DNA of 64,000 nucleotides, from contig NZ_BBBG01000007.1 in assembly GCF_001315945.1 (NCBI RefSeq), forward strand, positions 1-64,000, read 5' to 3'. Every line of letters begins with the position of its first letter. Positions within the stretch are counted from its first letter, which is position 1. Source of the stretch: Methanogenium cariaci JCM 10550. GTDB taxonomy: Archaea > Halobacteriota > Methanomicrobia > Methanomicrobiales > Methanomicrobiaceae. Below are positions 18,839 to 37,732 of the stretch, in pieces. Made by a program: the position numbers and the translations under genes. The notes beneath the pieces were generated by a model, which searched no databases, was not told where the DNA came from, and was given only the letters and a program-made list of their open reading frames with translations.

Positions 18839-18857
18839 AGTGCCTCAGGCCGGATTT
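18839..18857. repeat. attL core (19-bp direct repeat)
   Basis: AGTGCCTCAGGCCGGATTT, identical to 37657-37675, and equal to the last 17 bases of tRNA-Phe plus two flanking bases (reverse complement). It marks the left junction of the element. Confidence 0.93.
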
Positions 18858-18864
18858 CAGCAAA

Positions 18865-18878
18865 TAAGTATAATGCCC
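18865..18878 (+). repeat. Left arm of att-flanking inverted repeat
   Basis: TAAGTATAATGCCC, the exact reverse complement of 37636-37649. It lies 7 bp inside the left att core, as the other arm lies 7 bp inside the right core. Placement suggests recombinase or accessory-factor binding sites. Confidence 0.75.
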
Positions 18879-18913
18879 TAAATTTTTATATACGATATAA
18901 TCCCACACTAATT

Positions 18914-20210
18914 ATGGAAAAAAATGCCTTTCACGCAACGCGGCACCAGTATCAAACCTATGAAACACGGGCCATAGAAAATGCAATCAGTGATGGCAGA
19001 ATTTCCAAAAAGGAAGCCGGATACATCCGGGAATTCCTATCCGAGACCAATTCTCAGAAAGACCTGTCCGCGCAACGAAAGTTTAAACTCGCATCCAATC
19101 TCTGCACCGTCTCGCAATACACACCAGATATTGATGAGATGACAATAGGGGACCTATACGAGGCCGTGGAGAAGATCAAGAACGGGATATCTTCGCGGGG
19201 GAAGCCATACACACGGAACACTCAAAGCGATCTCTTACGCATCCTGAAGCGGTTCACTGTATGGTTGATTGAGAACGGGTATAGTGATCTTAATTTGAAG
19301 AAAGTGCAGAAGATCAAGATCCCGGCATACTCTACAAAGACCAAATCCGATAAGGACATCCTCAACGAGGAAGAGGTCCTTAAAATCATATCCGCTGCAA
19401 AAAGCATTCGATACCGTGCACTATTGAGCGTGCTGTTTGAGGGCGGATTCAGGATACAGGAATGCGCCGACATGAGATGGCAGGATGTCAGGTTCACAGA
19501 CTGGGGGGGCCCGCATCCGCACCGATGGCAAGACCGAGAAGGAGCGGGCCGTGCCGATCATTATGTATTGTGACACCCTCGCAAAGTGGCAGAGTGAACA
19601 CCCCGATCCGTCACCTGAAAACTATGTGTTTTTGAACCTGCACAATAAGCCACTGAAATATCAGAACACCCTTAAGACCATCAAACAATTTGCAGAGGAG
19701 GCAGGTATTGAGCGGAAGATCACGCCGCATATCTTCCGGCATTCACGCATTACATTTTGCCTGAGAAACGGCATGCAGGAGACACTTTTAAAGAAAACCT
19801 TCTGGGGGAATGAAACCACCGACATGCTGAAGATATACAGCCACCTCACACCGGGCGATGCAGACGAGGCATTCGCACGCATGGCAGGGGGGGTAGAGCT
19901 GCCGGAGGATGCCGGGGGGGAAGAGTCAAAGCTAAAGCCGGTGCAGTGTGACCAGTGCCATTATGTGAACGCACCCGGTGCCCGGTTCTGTAGCAGATGC
20001 GGTAAGGGACTTTCTGAAGAGGCCCGGGCAACCGTAGAGGGTGTCAAGGCAGAACTGAGAGACATCATGACAGAGGACCCGGTCACCCTCCTGGAAGCAG
20101 CACGGGAGATCGAGGCAATAAAGGCAGGCCGACAGGGTGGAGCAGTGCAGGCCCCGGAACAGGCCCGCCCCCCTGCCAAAGATTCCACTGAGACCGACAG
20201 CGCCGCATAG
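18914..20210 (+). CDS. Tyrosine recombinase (integrase) with C-terminal zinc ribbon, one frameshift
   Basis: Site-specific recombinase for the tRNA-Phe att site. An N-terminal SAM-like core-binding domain (about residues 30-140) is followed by a catalytic domain with Arg in GGFRIQECADMRW (near 178), HIFRHSR (His-x-x-Arg, near 272) and Tyr in DMLKIYSHL (near 306). A zinc ribbon CDQCHYVNAPGARFCSRCG follows at about residues 345-363, then an acidic helical tail. The G7 tract 19503-19509 breaks the frame between FTDWG and GARIRTDGKTEKERAV. Start MEKNAFHATRHQYQTYE at 18914; about 432 aa. It reads away from attL into the element. Confidence 0.93.
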
Positions 20211-21887: not shown

Positions 21888-23024
21888 TTACTTGTGTGCC
21901 AAATCTTCCAATTTTTTCTTCCCCCCCTTTAATTGCGATAAAAGGAAGGCAGCGTATGGATTGTCTTTTCTTATTGCAAGTGAACGGCTCAGATCATTTA
22001 TTGCATCATCAAACTGACGCATTTCAGTATATGCCTTCGCACGTAAGATAAGGGCAGTAGCACTATCAGGTTCAATATCAATAATCCGATCGCATATCTC
22101 AATTACACCCTGATAATCTTCTAAGCAATCTTTTATATTGGCACAATAAATGAGAGCTTCGTATGAAATAGGATTTATTTTTAGGGCTCTCTCCACATAT
22201 TCCAGTATTTCTTCTAAACTCGATTGCTCAGTGACATACATTGATTTTGCTTTATTCATCTGTTCCAAATATTCTTTGGAGTAGTATGGTTTTTCACAGC
22301 TATTTTCTGATGCAAAGCCTACCATGTCATTAAAAAGAGTTAATCCACTGATATCATGCAAATCCCGTAATTCAAATAATATTTTGGATTTTTGATCTGC
22401 ACTAATTCTAACCTTTTCTATCGATTCATCGATTATTTCAGGTTTTCCAAAAATGAATAACGAATGCTGTTTAGGGATTCTATTATTCAAATCTGAAGGT
22501 TCCCACACCCAAAGAAAATCCCCCCCCATTTCTTCCAAATATTTTTTAAATTTCCACCCAGAATTATCGCCATTTATTGGTTTGAATTTTTCAGGTTCAG
22601 ATGTATTAATGATATGTACAACACCGTCATTATCCGGATCATTTATAGATGCAAAATAAAGTGCAACCAAAGAAGAATACGTGAAATCGATTAATGCAGT
22701 TGCAGCACCATTATGCTGGAGTTCTGCCAAAAGCTCAAGGTCTTCCAGAGGGATGTTTCCTTTCTTATCATACCCCTTAAGTTTTGCATTAGAAATCAAA
22801 TCACAGTTATAGTCATTGAATTTTTTCAGCGCATCTTCACCTAGTTGATTATAACCAAGTCTTCTTGCAGCTGTGGAACTAATAGGATGTGAAATATCGC
22901 CCTGACCTCGGAAGGCAAATTTTCCATATTCGCATATTGTTAATTCTGTTATCTTTTCGAGATATTCTGTAACATTTATTACAGCTTTAGACCATTCTGA
23001 AGACTCAATTTCCTGTTCGGTCAC
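21888..23024 (-). CDS. FRG-domain protein with C-terminal TPR repeats
   Basis: 378 aa. The name-giving FRG motif is in YGKFAFRGQGDISHPISST; ELQHNGAATALIDFTYSSL and YFASINDPDNDGVVHIINT complete the domain (about residues 15-200). From about residue 265 to the end are two or three TPR-like repeats (LEYVERALKINPISYEALIY, RAKAYTEMRQFDDAINDLSR). FRG proteins are common in phages, plasmids and defence islands, usually with unknown substrates. One C7 tract gives EEMGGDFLW and may add a Gly. On the element it is divergent from copy 2 of the small membrane protein. Confidence 0.82.
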   Translation of the reverse strand: MTEQEIESSEWSKAVINVTEYLEKITELTICEYGKFAFRGQGDISHPISSTAARRLGYNQLGEDALKKFNDYNCDLISNAKLKGYDKKGNIPLEDLELLAELQHNGAATALIDFTYSSLVALYFASINDPDNDGVVHIINTSEPEKFKPINGDNSGWKFKKYLEEMGGDFLWVWEPSDLNNRIPKQHSLFIFGKPEIIDESIEKVRISADQKSKILFELRDLHDISGLTLFNDMVGFASENSCEKPYYSKEYLEQMNKAKSMYVTEQSSLEEILEYVERALKINPISYEALIYCANIKDCLEDYQGVIEICDRIIDIEPDSATALILRAKAYTEMRQFDDAINDLSRSLAIRKDNPYAAFLLSQLKGGKKKLEDLAHK

Positions 23025-24688: not shown

Positions 24689-25066
24689 ATGCGAATGGTG
24701 ACAAAGAGCGGACAGGTCTACGAGCAAACCTGTATACACGTCCCTCTTGAAATGAAACAGCAGGCTAAGGAAGCTGGCATCAATATGGCAGAGACTTTCC
24801 GGAATGCCCTTGCAGCAGAGATCAAGAACAGAAATCACCCCCGCCCAGACCCAGCAAGATCAGAACGGGGGGGGAGCAGCCTCAGACAGAGGTGCAGTCT
24901 AATGTCTACATCTACCCATATGAAACCCGTGGACAATGCCAGGCCACGACTGATAAGCCGTGATGTCCTAGAGGCACTTGATCCGCTATACCGGGCAACG
25001 GCGAACGTGCTGATCAGGCGTGGTGAGTGGGCAATAATCGATGAGACAGAAGAGGCGGTCAGATGA
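24689..25066 (+). CDS. Ribbon-helix-helix/CcdA-like DNA-binding protein, C-terminus uncertain
   Basis: The N-terminus QVYEQTCIHVPLEMKQQAKE followed by AGINMAETFRNALAAEI is a beta strand plus two helices, as in CcdA-like antitoxins and plasmid copy-control repressors. The G7 tract at about 24867 leaves the C-terminus ambiguous: as read it ends LIRRGEWAIIDETEEAVR at 25066; one base fewer gives SNVYIYPYETRGQCQATTDK and an earlier stop. No toxin partner is obvious nearby. A partial second copy of the RGEW region lies near 29500. Confidence 0.5.
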   Translation: MRMVTKSGQVYEQTCIHVPLEMKQQAKEAGINMAETFRNALAAEIKNRNHPRPDPARSERGGSSLRQRCSLMSTSTHMKPVDNARPRLISRDVLEALDPLYRATANVLIRRGEWAIIDETEEAVR

Positions 25067-29911: not shown

Positions 29912-32774
29912 ATGGATCTCAATGAAAATCAGACGCGGAAACAAAAGATTGATGTCCGGCTCAAAGAGCAGGGCTGGGATGTTGACAGCCGTTCGCATGT
30001 CATCCCGGAGGTTGATACAAAGCAGTCTGATTTCAATGCCTGTGACTACAAGACCGTTGACGAAACGCTCAAGAACGATTTTGAAAGTAAATATGCAGAT
30101 TATCTCCTGCTGGACAGTCTGAGAAATCCTCTTGCTGTAATCGAGGCAAAACGGACATCAAAAGACCCCCCCGAAATCGGTCAAAAGCAGGCCGAACAAT
30201 ATGCCGATGATATCAAACGCCAGACGGGCCGGGATGTCTTCATTTTTCTCACAAACGGATATGAAATAAAGTTCTGGGACAGGCAGCGTTATCCTCCCCC
30301 CCGGATGGTGAACGGGTTCTACGCCCGCAAAGACCTTGAGCGGCTTCGCTTCCAGAATGAACAGGTTCAGCCGGATACACCGAGAGGAGTCAATACCGAT
30401 ATTGTTGACCGCCCGAAGAGTATCGAGAATGTCAAACGGATAGTGGAGCACATCCAGAAGGGCCACAGGAAAGCGTTGATTGTGATGGCTACGGGCACGG
30501 GGGGGAAGACCCGTGTCGCAATGGCAATTATCGATGCTCTCATGCAGGAGAACCGTGCTCACCGGGTGCTCTTCCTTGCAGACAGAAAGGCACTTCGTGA
30601 TCAGGCATGGAACAAAGGGTTTCAGGAGTTCTTCCCGCAGGAGGCGAAGGACAAAATCCTGCACGGGAATTTCAACAAGGAAAAGCGGCTCTATGTCTCC
30701 ACCATCCAGACATTTCAGGAAATTTATACCCAGAAAGATGAAAACGGTCAGTATCTCATCTCACCCGGTGAGTTTGACCTCATCATCTCTGACGAAGCAC
30801 ATCGCAGTATCTATAATAAATGGCGGGATGTCTTCACCTATTTCGATGCCATACAAATTGGGCTGACTGCAACGCCCGCAGACCTTGTTGACCGGGATAC
30901 CTTCCGGTTCTTCGGGTGTGATAACCAGGCACCAACCGCTCTCTACTCATATGAAGAGGCGGTGAAGGACGGTATCCTCTGTGACTTCCGCAAGAATATC
31001 ATGGGTGCTCAGACCCACTTCCAGATTGAAGGGGGGGTGAAGCCCTCAGACCTGAGCGAGACCGAACGGAACCGTCTCATTGAACAGGGCATCGACCCGG
31101 ATGAAATTGATTTTGATGGCTCTGTTCTGGAGAAGAAGATTGCCGTGAAGGGAACGTCTGAAGCAATCGTCCGGGAGTTCATGGATAATTGCCAGATGGA
31201 TGAGACCGGCACCCTTCCTGCAAAGACCATCTTCTTTGCCATATCAAAGAAGCATGCGAACCGCCTTCATGAGGCGTTCAATGACCTCTATCCTGAATAT
31301 AAGGGGGGGAATCTGGCACGCATCATTGTCTCTGAGGACTCCCGTGCACAGGATCTCATCAAAGACTTTGAGAAGGAGTCATTTCCCCGTGTTGCCATCT
31401 CGGTCGATATGCTGGACACCGGCATTGACGTGCCGGAGGTATGCAACCTTGTCTTTGCAAAACCCGTCTTTTCCAAGATCAAATTCTGGCAGATGCTGGG
31501 AAGAGGGACACGGGCGGATTCGGTATGCAAACACCGTGACTGGCTCCCGGACGGGAAGAAGGAGTATTTCAAGGTCTTCGATTTCTGGAATAATTTTGAT
31601 TACTGGAACATGAACCCAGGAGGAGGATAAACGAACCCATTGAAGCGATTACCAGCCGGATCTTTCTCCTGCGGGTCAAACAGCTTGACCACCTGATACA
31701 GGCAGGAGATGAGGAACATGCTGCGGTTATTCGGGCAAAAATCGAGGATGACATCCGTGCTCTCCCGTCAGATTCTGTAAGTGTGCGGGAACACGAGCAG
31801 GAAATACAGAAAGCACTCTCTCCAAAGTTGTGGGACAATGTTGCCATTGACCCGATTGCGTATCTGACATCCCATATGATGCCCCTGATGCGCTACCAGA
31901 TGGGTGTCAATCTCAAGGAAGCGTCCTTTACGATCAAGTCTGAGCGTCTTACGCTTGCTGTCCTAGAAGGAAATGACAGGGAAATAGAACGGCAGAAGAA
32001 CGCCATCGCTGAAATGGTTGACCTTCTCCCGCGTAATCTTGAAAAAGTCCGGCAGAAGGAAGACCAGCTGGATGACGTGCTCTCCCGGTCGTTCTGGAAG
32101 GGTCTTTCGTTCGAGGATACCCGGATGCTTGTGTCTGATATCGCACCGCTGATGAAGTACATGTCAAAGGAAACTCCCCCCCGATGATTGTTATCGACAT
32201 GGGAGATGTGATTGAGAAACGCAGCATCTGGGAGGTGAATGAGGATGCCCCCCCTCCCTATGTCACCGCATTTGTCAAGAAGGTGGAAGAGCGAATCCGC
32301 GAGATGGCGACCGAAGACCCTGTCATCCAAAAGATTGCAAACGATGAAGCCATCACCGAAACCGACCTCACCCGTCTGGAAGAAACCCTCACGGATGCCG
32401 GGGGGGTGAATATCAATGAGGAAGTCCTGCAGAAAGGCTACCGGCAGCCACGGGGGGGGACGCTTGTTGATTTTATCAAATCAGTCCTGGGACTCTACCG
32501 GGCACCCGACCCGAAAAAGAAGATCGATGAAGCGTTCCAGACCTTTATGGCTGAGAACAACAAGCACTACACCGCCGACCAGCTCCACTTCATCAGGACG
32601 ATTCAGACGGTATTTATGCGCAAAAAACACATAGATATGACAGATCTCTGGGACGCTCCGTTCACCAATTTTGGCATCAACGCACCGCTGCCGATGTTTG
32701 ACGAGGGCGACCTCAGGGCGTTCATTGGCATATGCCAGGGACTGGAACAGGAATTGTATGTTGCGGAGGCATGA
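29912..32774 (+). CDS. hsdR: Type I restriction enzyme, R (translocase/nuclease) subunit, frameshifted
   Basis: Motor and nuclease subunit of a type I system, about 954 aa. An N-terminal nuclease domain (YLLLDSLRNPLAVIEAKR with E-x-K) is followed by SF2 helicase motifs: P-loop read as ATGTGGKTRVAMAI (one Gly more than ATGTGKTR), DEAH in LIISDEAHRSIYNKWRD, GLTATP and MLGRGTRAD. A base lost at about 31627 makes an early TAA after NPGG; translation resumes as NEPIEAITSRIFLLRV. The tract near 32180 breaks the frame once more. The C-terminus ends GICQGLEQELYVAEA. Start follows GGAGTGAC. First gene of hsdR-hsdS-hsdM. Confidence 0.92.
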
Positions 32775-32783
32775 GGAGAAGTG

Positions 32784-33972
32784 GTGAAGAAGGAGTTGCC
32801 TGAGGGGTGGGAATGGAAGAGATTGGGGGATATTGGAGTATATATTAATGGCCGCGCTTTCAAGCCTCAGAGTGGACAAAAACTGGCATGCCAATTGTTA
32901 GAATTCAAAATTTAACAAACCAATTTAAAGAATTCAACTATTACAACGGCGAAGCTGATAGTAAATATTTTTTGAAAAATGGAGACATCTTAATATCGTG
33001 GTCTGCCTCTCTGGGCGTGTTCCTTTGGGAACGAGGAGATGCTGTATTGAATCAGCATATTTTCAAAGCTATTCCTGATTTAAATATTGTTGATAAGAAT
33101 TATTTCATTTATGCAATTCGGAATATTCTCGAAGATATGAAAAAATTCAGCCATGGATCAACAATGAAACACATAGTGAAATCAGATTTTGATAACACGA
33201 ATATCCCTATTCCACCCCCCCTCGAAACACAGCGCAAGATTGTTGACATCCTTGAAAAAGCAGAGGCGACTCAACGCCTTCGGGCAGAGGTAGATGCACT
33301 CATACAGAAGCTGGTGCAGAGCGTTTTTCTGGATATGTTTGGTGATCCTGCCTCTAATCCATACACTTGGAAAGAATGTTCCTTCGATAAAATTCTACTT
33401 AAAAGTCCTCAAAATGGACTCTATAAGTCATCCGATTTTTATGGGGGGGATGGAACCCCAATCATGCGAATTGATTCATTTTATGATGGCAAAATATATG
33501 GACTCGAAAATTTAAAGCGTTTGAAATGTTCTGAATCTGAAATAGAGAGATATGGTTTGGTAATTGAAGATATTTTAATTAATCGTGTCAATAGCATAGA
33601 GTACCTTGGAAAATGTGGTTTAATTGAAATTTTGTATGAACCACTGTTTTTGAATCAAACATTATGAGATTGAATATCGATACTGAAATAGCAGATCCTC
33701 GCTACATTACTGCATTATTGTGCACACAATATGTCAGAAACCAAATTATGAGTAAGGCCAAGAAAGCAGTAAATCAAGCTAGTATTAATCAAGGGGGGGA
33801 TGTAAAATCCTTGGAAATTCTGTTGCCACCCATTGAATTACAAAATAACTTTGCAAAAATTATTCAATTAATGGATGTTCTTCACAAGAAAATAATTCAC
33901 TCTGAGAAGAATTCTGCTGATCTTGTGAGGTACCTAATGTCCAAAGCTTTCATTGGAGAATTGACTATATGA
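32784..33972 (+). CDS. hsdS: Type I restriction enzyme, S (specificity) subunit, frameshifted
   Basis: Target-recognition subunit, about 396 aa with two half-domains. ELPEGWEWKRLGDIG opens TRD1; the central conserved region is PIPPPLETQRKIVDILEKAE; TRD2 follows (GDPASNPYTWKECSFD), and the distal conserved region is LLPPIELQNNFAKIIQLM. Lost bases near 32865 (before SEWTKTGMPIVRIQ) and 33642 (giving EPTVFESNIMRLN) break the frame; the tract near 33795 adds a Gly (NQGGDV for NQGDV). GTG 32784 follows GAGGAG. TRDs are AT-rich and vary between strains, so the target cannot be read off. Confidence 0.9.
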
Positions 33973-35497
33973 AACTAGCCCCCCCGAATTAAAATCAAAG
34001 ATTGACACCCTCTGGGATCGCTTCTGGAGCGGCGGGATGTCAAACCCCCTCCAGTCCATCGAACAGATGTCTTACATCATCTTCATGAAGCGGCTGGAGG
34101 ACATGGATGTCGTTGAGCAGAACCGTGCACGGGCACGGGATATCGAATATACGTCCGTCTTCGAGGGAAAGGATGCGTGCCGGTGGTCGAACTGGAAGCA
34201 CTATCCTGCCGAGCAGATGCTCGTGCACGTCCGTGATGTTGTCTTCCCGTTCATCAAGAACCTGCACAGCGAGGAGAAGACACTCTTCACCCGGCAGATG
34301 CGGGATGCAGTCTTCATCATCCCGAAACCGTCCCTCTTGCAGGAGGCGGTTGCCCTTATCGATGAGATGGATATCACCGCCCAGAACCGTGATACACAGG
34401 GCGACATCTACGAGTATCTTCTCTCCCAGCTCTCCACTGCAGGTATGAACGGACAGTTCCGGACACCCCCCCGGCATATCATCCGGATGATGGTGGAACT
34501 GGTTGAACCGGATGTCAATGACCGTATATGTGACCCTGCCTGCGGAACGGCAGGATTCCTGATCAACGCCTATGAATATATCATCCGGAAATACACCAGC
34601 CCCCCCGATATGCTGGAGGTTGACAGTGAGGGCGAATACCACAATCTCATCGGGGGGGATAATATCACTGACCAGCGGCATTGGGAGAAGCTCTGGAGTG
34701 ATACGTTCTATGGATATGATTTTGATTCCACGATGGCCCGCATCTCGCTCATGAACATGATGCTCCACGGGATTAAGGCACCACAGATTGAGCAGAAGGA
34801 TACGCTCTCCAAGCTCTACAATGAGGAGGAGCGGTATTCGGTGGTGCTTGCCAATCCTCCGTTCAAGGGGGGGAGTATCGATAAGAGCGATATCAGTGAC
34901 ATTCTGAGCCTTCCAACGACAAAGACCGAACTTCTGTTTGTGGAACGGATGATTCACCTCCTGACGATTGGCGGGCGGTGTGCGGTGATCGTGCCGGATG
35001 GCGTTGTGTTCGGGAGTTCAAAGGCGCATAAGAAACTCCGGCAGATGCTCCTTGAGGAGAACCAGGTCGAAGGTATTGTCTCCATGCCATCCGGTGTCTT
35101 CAGACCGTATGCAGGGGGGGTTTCCACCGCTGTGCTTATCTTTGCCAAGGGTGGAGCGACTGAGAAGGTCTGGTTCTATGATATGGAGGCAGATGGTTTC
35201 TCACTGGATGACAAACGGACGCTCATTGACGGAAAGGGTGACATCCCTGATATTATTGAGCATTTCAGGGGCCGGAGAGATGAAGTGCCTGAAGACCGGA
35301 AGGGCAAGTGCTTCTATGTGCCGTTTGAGGAGATCAAGGAGAATAATTTCGACCTTTCAATTTCGCGGTACAAAGAGATTGAATATGAAGAGATTGAGTA
35401 TGACCCTCCTGAAGTGATTATTGAGAAGATTGAGGGTATTGAGAAGCAGATATTGGTGAATCTTGATGAGCTGCGGGAATTGTTGAAAAATAGTTGA
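33969..35497 (+). CDS. hsdM: Type I restriction-modification methyltransferase, M subunit, frameshifted near the start
   Basis: N6-adenine methyltransferase, about 509 aa. The ATG at 33969 overlaps the hsdS stop; a C7 tract at about 33979 then hides the first 22 residues (KLAP, ELKSKIDTLWDRFW), so the clean frame begins at MSNPLQSIEQMSYIIFM. The N-terminal recognition domain is followed by SAM motif I DPACGTAGFLINA and catalytic NPPF in VVLANPPFKGG. Several tracts add single Gly or Pro residues. HsdM is last, an order R-S-M unlike the commoner R-M-S or M-S-R. Confidence 0.94.
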
Positions 35498-37635: not shown

Positions 37636-37649
37636 GGGCATTATACTTA
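37636..37649 (+). repeat. Right arm of att-flanking inverted repeat
   Basis: GGGCATTATACTTA, exact reverse complement of 18865-18878, ending 7 bp before the right att core. Confidence 0.75.
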
Positions 37650-37656
37650 GGCGCGG

Positions 37657-37675
37657 AGTGCCTCAGGCCGGATTT
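37657..37675. repeat. attR core (19-bp direct repeat)
   Basis: AGTGCCTCAGGCCGGATTT, identical to 18839-18857, overlapping the 3' end of tRNA-Phe. Integration here leaves the tRNA intact. Confidence 0.93.
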
Positions 37676-37732
37676 GAACCAGCGACAACCAGATCTTCAG
37701 TCTGGCGCTCTCCCAATCTGAGCTACTAAGGC
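37659..37732 (-). tRNA. tRNA-Phe (GAA)
   Basis: 74 nt. Acceptor strand GCCTTAG pairs with CTGAGGC (one G-U), discriminator A, anticodon stem CCAGA/TCTGG around CTGAAGA, T-loop TTCAAAT. CCA is not encoded. The 3' 17 bases serve as the integration site of the 18.8-kb element. Confidence 0.97.

Follow-up and report, generated by a model that had tools for sequence, protein, structure and literature searches.

The attI site of integrons holds several binding sites for IntI, the extra ones being direct repeats on one side, and the attP site of pSAM2, a bacterial element with a tRNA gene as target, carries arm-type sites on both sides that are more distant and less symmetric than those described below. 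According to a 2021 review, the attP of lambda extends over about 240 bp with sites for Int, Xis and IHF, and no directionality factor is needed for integration or excision by any of the archaeal integrases characterised so far (PMC8371274). The passages of this review on att sites and directionality mention no inverted arm sites in archaea, and a text search of the review gave neither "zinc" nor "arm-binding" (PMC8371274).

The window analysed here, that is the whole stretch of 64,000 nucleotides from Methanogenium cariaci JCM 10550, contains an integrated element whose att sites share features with several of these systems. As in lambda, a tyrosine integrase is accompanied by extra sites that flank the core towards the element alone, present in attP and absent from attB; unlike in lambda, each side has a single mirror-image arm, no more than about 31 bp away from the crossover centre. 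As in integron attI, a core pair is joined by further copies of what appears to be the recombinase's own site type, but the extra sites are here inverted and symmetric. The tRNA-gene target together with arms on both sides of the core recalls pSAM2. The SNJ2-, SSV- and pNOB8-type integrases are likewise archaeal tyrosine recombinases that use tRNA genes; in contrast to the suicidal SSV type, in which the att site lies inside int, the core and one arm of the window element precede the int gene, whose ATG is at 18914.

Core, spacers and arms of the window element

The integration target is the gene for tRNA-Phe(GAA) (37658–37732, minus strand), the 3' end of which is restored by the element. The attR core AGTGCCTCAGGCCGGATTT within this gene (37657–37675, plus strand) is matched at 19 of 19 positions by the attL core (18839–18857, plus strand), a displaced copy of the tRNA 3' end (tRNA bases 57–75). 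This direct repeat of the tRNA 3' end, the restoration of the tRNA at one end and the presence of empty sites in relatives are the marks of a tRNA-integrated element. The empty sites are found in five other Methanogenium genomes, which have tRNA-Phe without element or arms, and the 3' flanks in two of them (L168 and L172) are visibly similar to the left host flank of the window.

The left arm TAAGTATAATGCCC (18865–18878, plus strand), a predicted accessory integrase site, is separated from the attL core by the 7-bp spacer CAGCAAA (18858–18864, plus strand). Its exact reverse complement, TAAGTATAATGCCC on the minus strand, forms the right arm (37636–37649), from which the 7-bp spacer GGCGCGG (37650–37656, plus strand) leads to the attR core. 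The 14-bp inverted repeat that the first-pass annotation had placed 7 bp inside both cores is thus confirmed in coordinates and in both spacers, and each arm copy occurs a single time in the window. In a random control with 400,000 pairs of 60-bp window stretches, in which equal spacing was not demanded, a run of 13 was found once and a run of 14 never. This result, together with the relatives that carry arms of their own, upholds the earlier opinion that a chance match is very unlikely. Immediately downstream of the left arm, a TATA-box-like sequence, TTTATATA (18885–18892, plus strand), was read from the sequence as part of the predicted int promoter.

The window also holds a type I restriction-modification cargo (29912–35497) with hsdR-like (29912–31630), hsdS-like (32888–33667) and hsdM-like (34037–35497) genes, of which hsdR and hsdS appear in pieces. 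An FRG-domain and TPR protein is encoded inside the element on the minus strand (21888–23024), and a 125-aa protein (24689–25066), with no Pfam match, is ribbon-helix-helix-like on reading.

Arms in related elements

The nearest genome match is Methanogenium sp. MK-MG, with an integrase 93% identical to that of the window. Its element, whose ends lie on different contigs and were paired by sequence only, shares the tRNA-Phe target and the core sequence with that of the window, likewise has spacers of 7 bp, and carries the arms AAAGTGTAATGCCC / AAAGTATAATGCCC, in which the first base of both arms is changed to A with respect to the window. The first-pass annotation had named related elements with the same integrase and tRNA site but without arms as the observation that would speak against its reading; this sister element has both arms.

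An integrase homologue was found in 126 of the 232 genomes of Methanomicrobiales, and regions were taken around many of these integrases. The att ends were paired solely on tRNA or core match, the arms playing no part in the choice, and this gave 30 pairs including the window element, 29 of them automatic and one (G096) taken manually from a previous search for exact repeats. The inner flanks were then scanned for their best inverted repeat without a positional prior, a strict test requiring a score of at least 9 and a centre at tRNA base 65–66. This test was passed by 21 of the 30 paired elements, in agreement with the symmetry about attP in the excised circle proposed at first pass. The controls passed at 1.3% (outer flanks), 0.33% (shuffled flanks) and 4.6% (flanks paired across elements), and none of the 30 host-side flank pairs passed, which places the arms on the element side only. 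The arms, if bound as predicted, set the 21 elements apart from a simple site of the loxP or dif type, which has a core pair alone.

The passing elements are inserted at tRNA-Thr, Phe, Glu, Ser, Arg and Gly, and int lies at one end in some and at the other in others (both orientations). Strong repeats include those of G067 (tRNA-Phe, 20/21), G014 (tRNA-Thr, 18/18), G094 (tRNA-Thr, 15/15) and G089 (tRNA-Glu, 13/13), and a weaker one with the same centre was seen in G165 (tRNA-Leu). The arm sequence differs between elements and is matched within each; even a small element of 4.5 kb (L124) is armed. The strict test was failed by nine of the 30 paired elements, some of them possibly wrong pairs (e.g. 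L121 and L126). In the reconstructed attB flanks of L093 and L097, arm-like or tRNA-like sequence past the host-side core hints that elements may be stacked in tandem at one tRNA gene.

A search of related elements for the same core-spacer-arm layout, recommended at first pass, found symmetric arms also at other tRNAs in distant relatives. The circular viral genome ThalV2 (Archaeoglobus host) carries GGGTTATAGACCTT-35-AAGGTTTATAACCC upstream of the integrase, and GacPV1 has a weaker repeat in a similar layout. The wider-phylum set comprised 20 regions, 13 of which were without a paired tRNA end and lay outside the comparison; the layout was seen in four paired sites (L157, L161, L151 and L150), the last of them weaker, with a score of only 8 and arms identical to those of GacPV1. 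At the paired tRNA-Gln ends of L147 and L148 the repeat was absent from the expected place, and L155 is probably mispaired. No clear arm pair was seen in the weaker relative vir524 (BK063669), a circular Caudoviricetes record in which a complete tRNA-Leu adjoins the integrase (L137, 29679–29764). The window integrase, searched against viral contigs, gave no match.

Crossover, arm motif and integrase

When attP and attB of the 30 elements were aligned on the arm centre, identity was 100% at tRNA bases 63–66 and 68–72 and 97% at base 67, and fell to 67% at base 62, with eight elements losing identity exactly at base 63. A predicted 7-bp crossover centred on base 66 would span bases 63–69, so that the symmetry of the arms and the block of identity point to the same place. 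In the window this crossover corresponds to TCAGGCC at 37663–37669 (plus strand), with its attL copy at 18845–18851. The conservation of bases 70–73 probably reflects the need of the element to restore the tRNA.

The arm motif, read outward, is roughly AAGTTnnWAATnCC. A profile trained on the arms, leaving out each element in turn, has its attP peaks on the two arms and on the half-site of the T-arm side, the latter peak not being fully independent since this half-site is in some elements partly tRNA-derived identity. The attP half-sites reached p ≤ 0.05 in 15 of 30 elements on the T-arm side and in 6 of 30 on the acceptor-stem side. In attB the best position of the profile is the T-arm of the tRNA (p ≤ 0.05 in 28 of 30 elements). 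This peak was still on the T-arm in the type-A elements alone (n = 18), where none of 300 column-permuted profiles equalled it. On the strength of these profiles the arms look like T-arm mimics, and a motif common to all four attP sites is supported for three of them and weakly for the fourth. An arm unlike the core, as in lambda-type sites, is not what is seen here, the arm profile matching the T-arm half-site and, weakly, the acceptor-side one. An argument from helical phase was dropped, as the centre-to-centre spacing of about 48 bp is a non-integer number of turns.

The tyrosine integrase gene (18914–20210, plus strand) has a PF00589 match in both halves, and its reading frame shifts at seven consecutive G (19503–19509). 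The frameshift may be an error of sequencing or a genuine interruption, the former being suggested by the intact MK-MG homologue, which reads through for 428 aa. The second half ends in a zinc-ribbon-like tail. In 62 aligned homologues (alignment A1), R180, H272, R275 and Y308 are invariant, which completes the catalytic R...HxxR...Y set, and the four cysteines of the C-terminal zinc ribbon are as invariant as these catalytic residues. The zinc ribbon was considered as a marker of arms and rejected, as its cysteines are invariant and the two armless relatives have a ribbon-like tail as well.

An AlphaFold2 model of the MK-MG integrase (mean pLDDT 91.6, pTM 0.84) begins with about 9 residues and a helix (residues 10–26) that leads into helices interpreted as the core-binding domain, followed by the catalytic domain, the zinc ribbon and a helical pair, so that the extension is C-terminal. 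A separate N-terminal arm-binding domain, a feature of lambda-type integrases, is not seen in this model, and the window integrase is accordingly predicted to differ from them in this respect. XerA, XerH, lambda Int and IntI4 are among the nearest solved folds, and the closest by sequence are the archaeal XerC-like 4a8e and XerA 5hxy.

Candidate readers of the arms

The first-pass annotation had offered a recombinase site, a directionality-factor site and an excision control element as roles for the arms. Of these, a recombinase site appears to fit best because the arms vary with the integrase sequence, resemble the T-arm in attB and belong to elements in which int is the only gene found in all 30; a directionality-factor site is less probable. 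Arm distance tracks integrase distance (rho 0.27, permutation p 0.001, 49 elements), although this covariation may reflect shared ancestry only; no single domain stands out when the correlation is taken domain by domain in the same 49 elements. With tRNA isotype the arms show a rho of –0.03 (21 elements, some arms being shifted by one base). Int forms the sole protein cluster present in all 30 elements, the next widest reaching 15, and no conserved accessory gene was found throughout the 30 by clusters at BLAST level, which fast-diverging small proteins, or a protein of the host, could escape. The tracking of the integrase by the arms, the sharing of int alone and the armed L124 favour the integrase as the candidate reader. 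The arms are very probably integrase landing sites and not a coincidence, and we consider it likely that the tyrosine integrase encoded by the element itself uses them as accessory binding sites.

In such an arrangement, the 61-bp attP of the excised circle would read arm, core half-site, 7-bp crossover, core half-site and arm, and the T-arm of the tRNA in attB would be one core half-site recognised by the integrase, the arms presumably being read through the same DNA-reading surface. attP would then have two extra sites, attL and attR one each and attB none. This unequal number could allow the integrase to tell attP, attB and attL/attR apart, and could set the direction of the reaction.

The arms might instead be bound by a protein other than the integrase, an accessory or directionality factor of the element or the host. 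The SNJ2 integrase is modulated by two small proteins, as described in the 2021 review (PMC8371274), a small dimeric DNA-binding protein would suit a symmetric pair of sites, and the 125-aa ribbon-helix-helix-like protein of the window is a candidate for it. We judge this unlikely, given that clusters other than Int reach at most 15 of the 30 elements and the ribbon-helix-helix-like small-protein cluster only 5, that an element as small as L124 bears arms, and that the arm motif is close in sequence to the half-site on the T-arm.

It is less likely still that the main function of the left arm is to act as an operator at the int promoter, for autoregulation. The TATA-like box lies 6 bp downstream of this arm in the window, several relatives have their left arm shortly upstream of int, and there are bacterial examples of tRNA-associated integrase genes autoregulated through an overlap of attL and promoter (PMC2951348), but an operator explains neither the equally conserved right arm, which is far from int when integrated, nor a symmetry centre on tRNA base 65–66. 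An operator role is compatible with the arms being integrase sites, as a side effect.

The likeness to the T-arm and the hint of tandem elements in the L093 and L097 flanks would also suit arms that are fossil tRNA fragments from earlier integrations. Fragments in one orientation, however, would not give mirror images at equal offsets in 21 of 30 elements, and the arms vary with the integrase sequence, which makes this origin very improbable. A chance match confined to the window element, for which no support was found, can be practically discarded in view of the random-pair controls and the recurrence in relatives.

The arms pin the predicted crossover to tRNA bases 63–69, give a means of mapping att ends in genomes and suggest how a single integrase family could use many different tRNA genes. 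The control of direction in archaea is left open by the 2021 review, and a conserved symmetric arm pair would be a simple cis-acting candidate for it. We tentatively put forward, as a possibility short of an even chance, that a broad archaeal integrase family with an invariant C-terminal zinc ribbon may pick tRNA genes through the near-universal T-arm, and that two outward T-arm mimics in attP may act as a built-in control of direction with no separate directionality factor.
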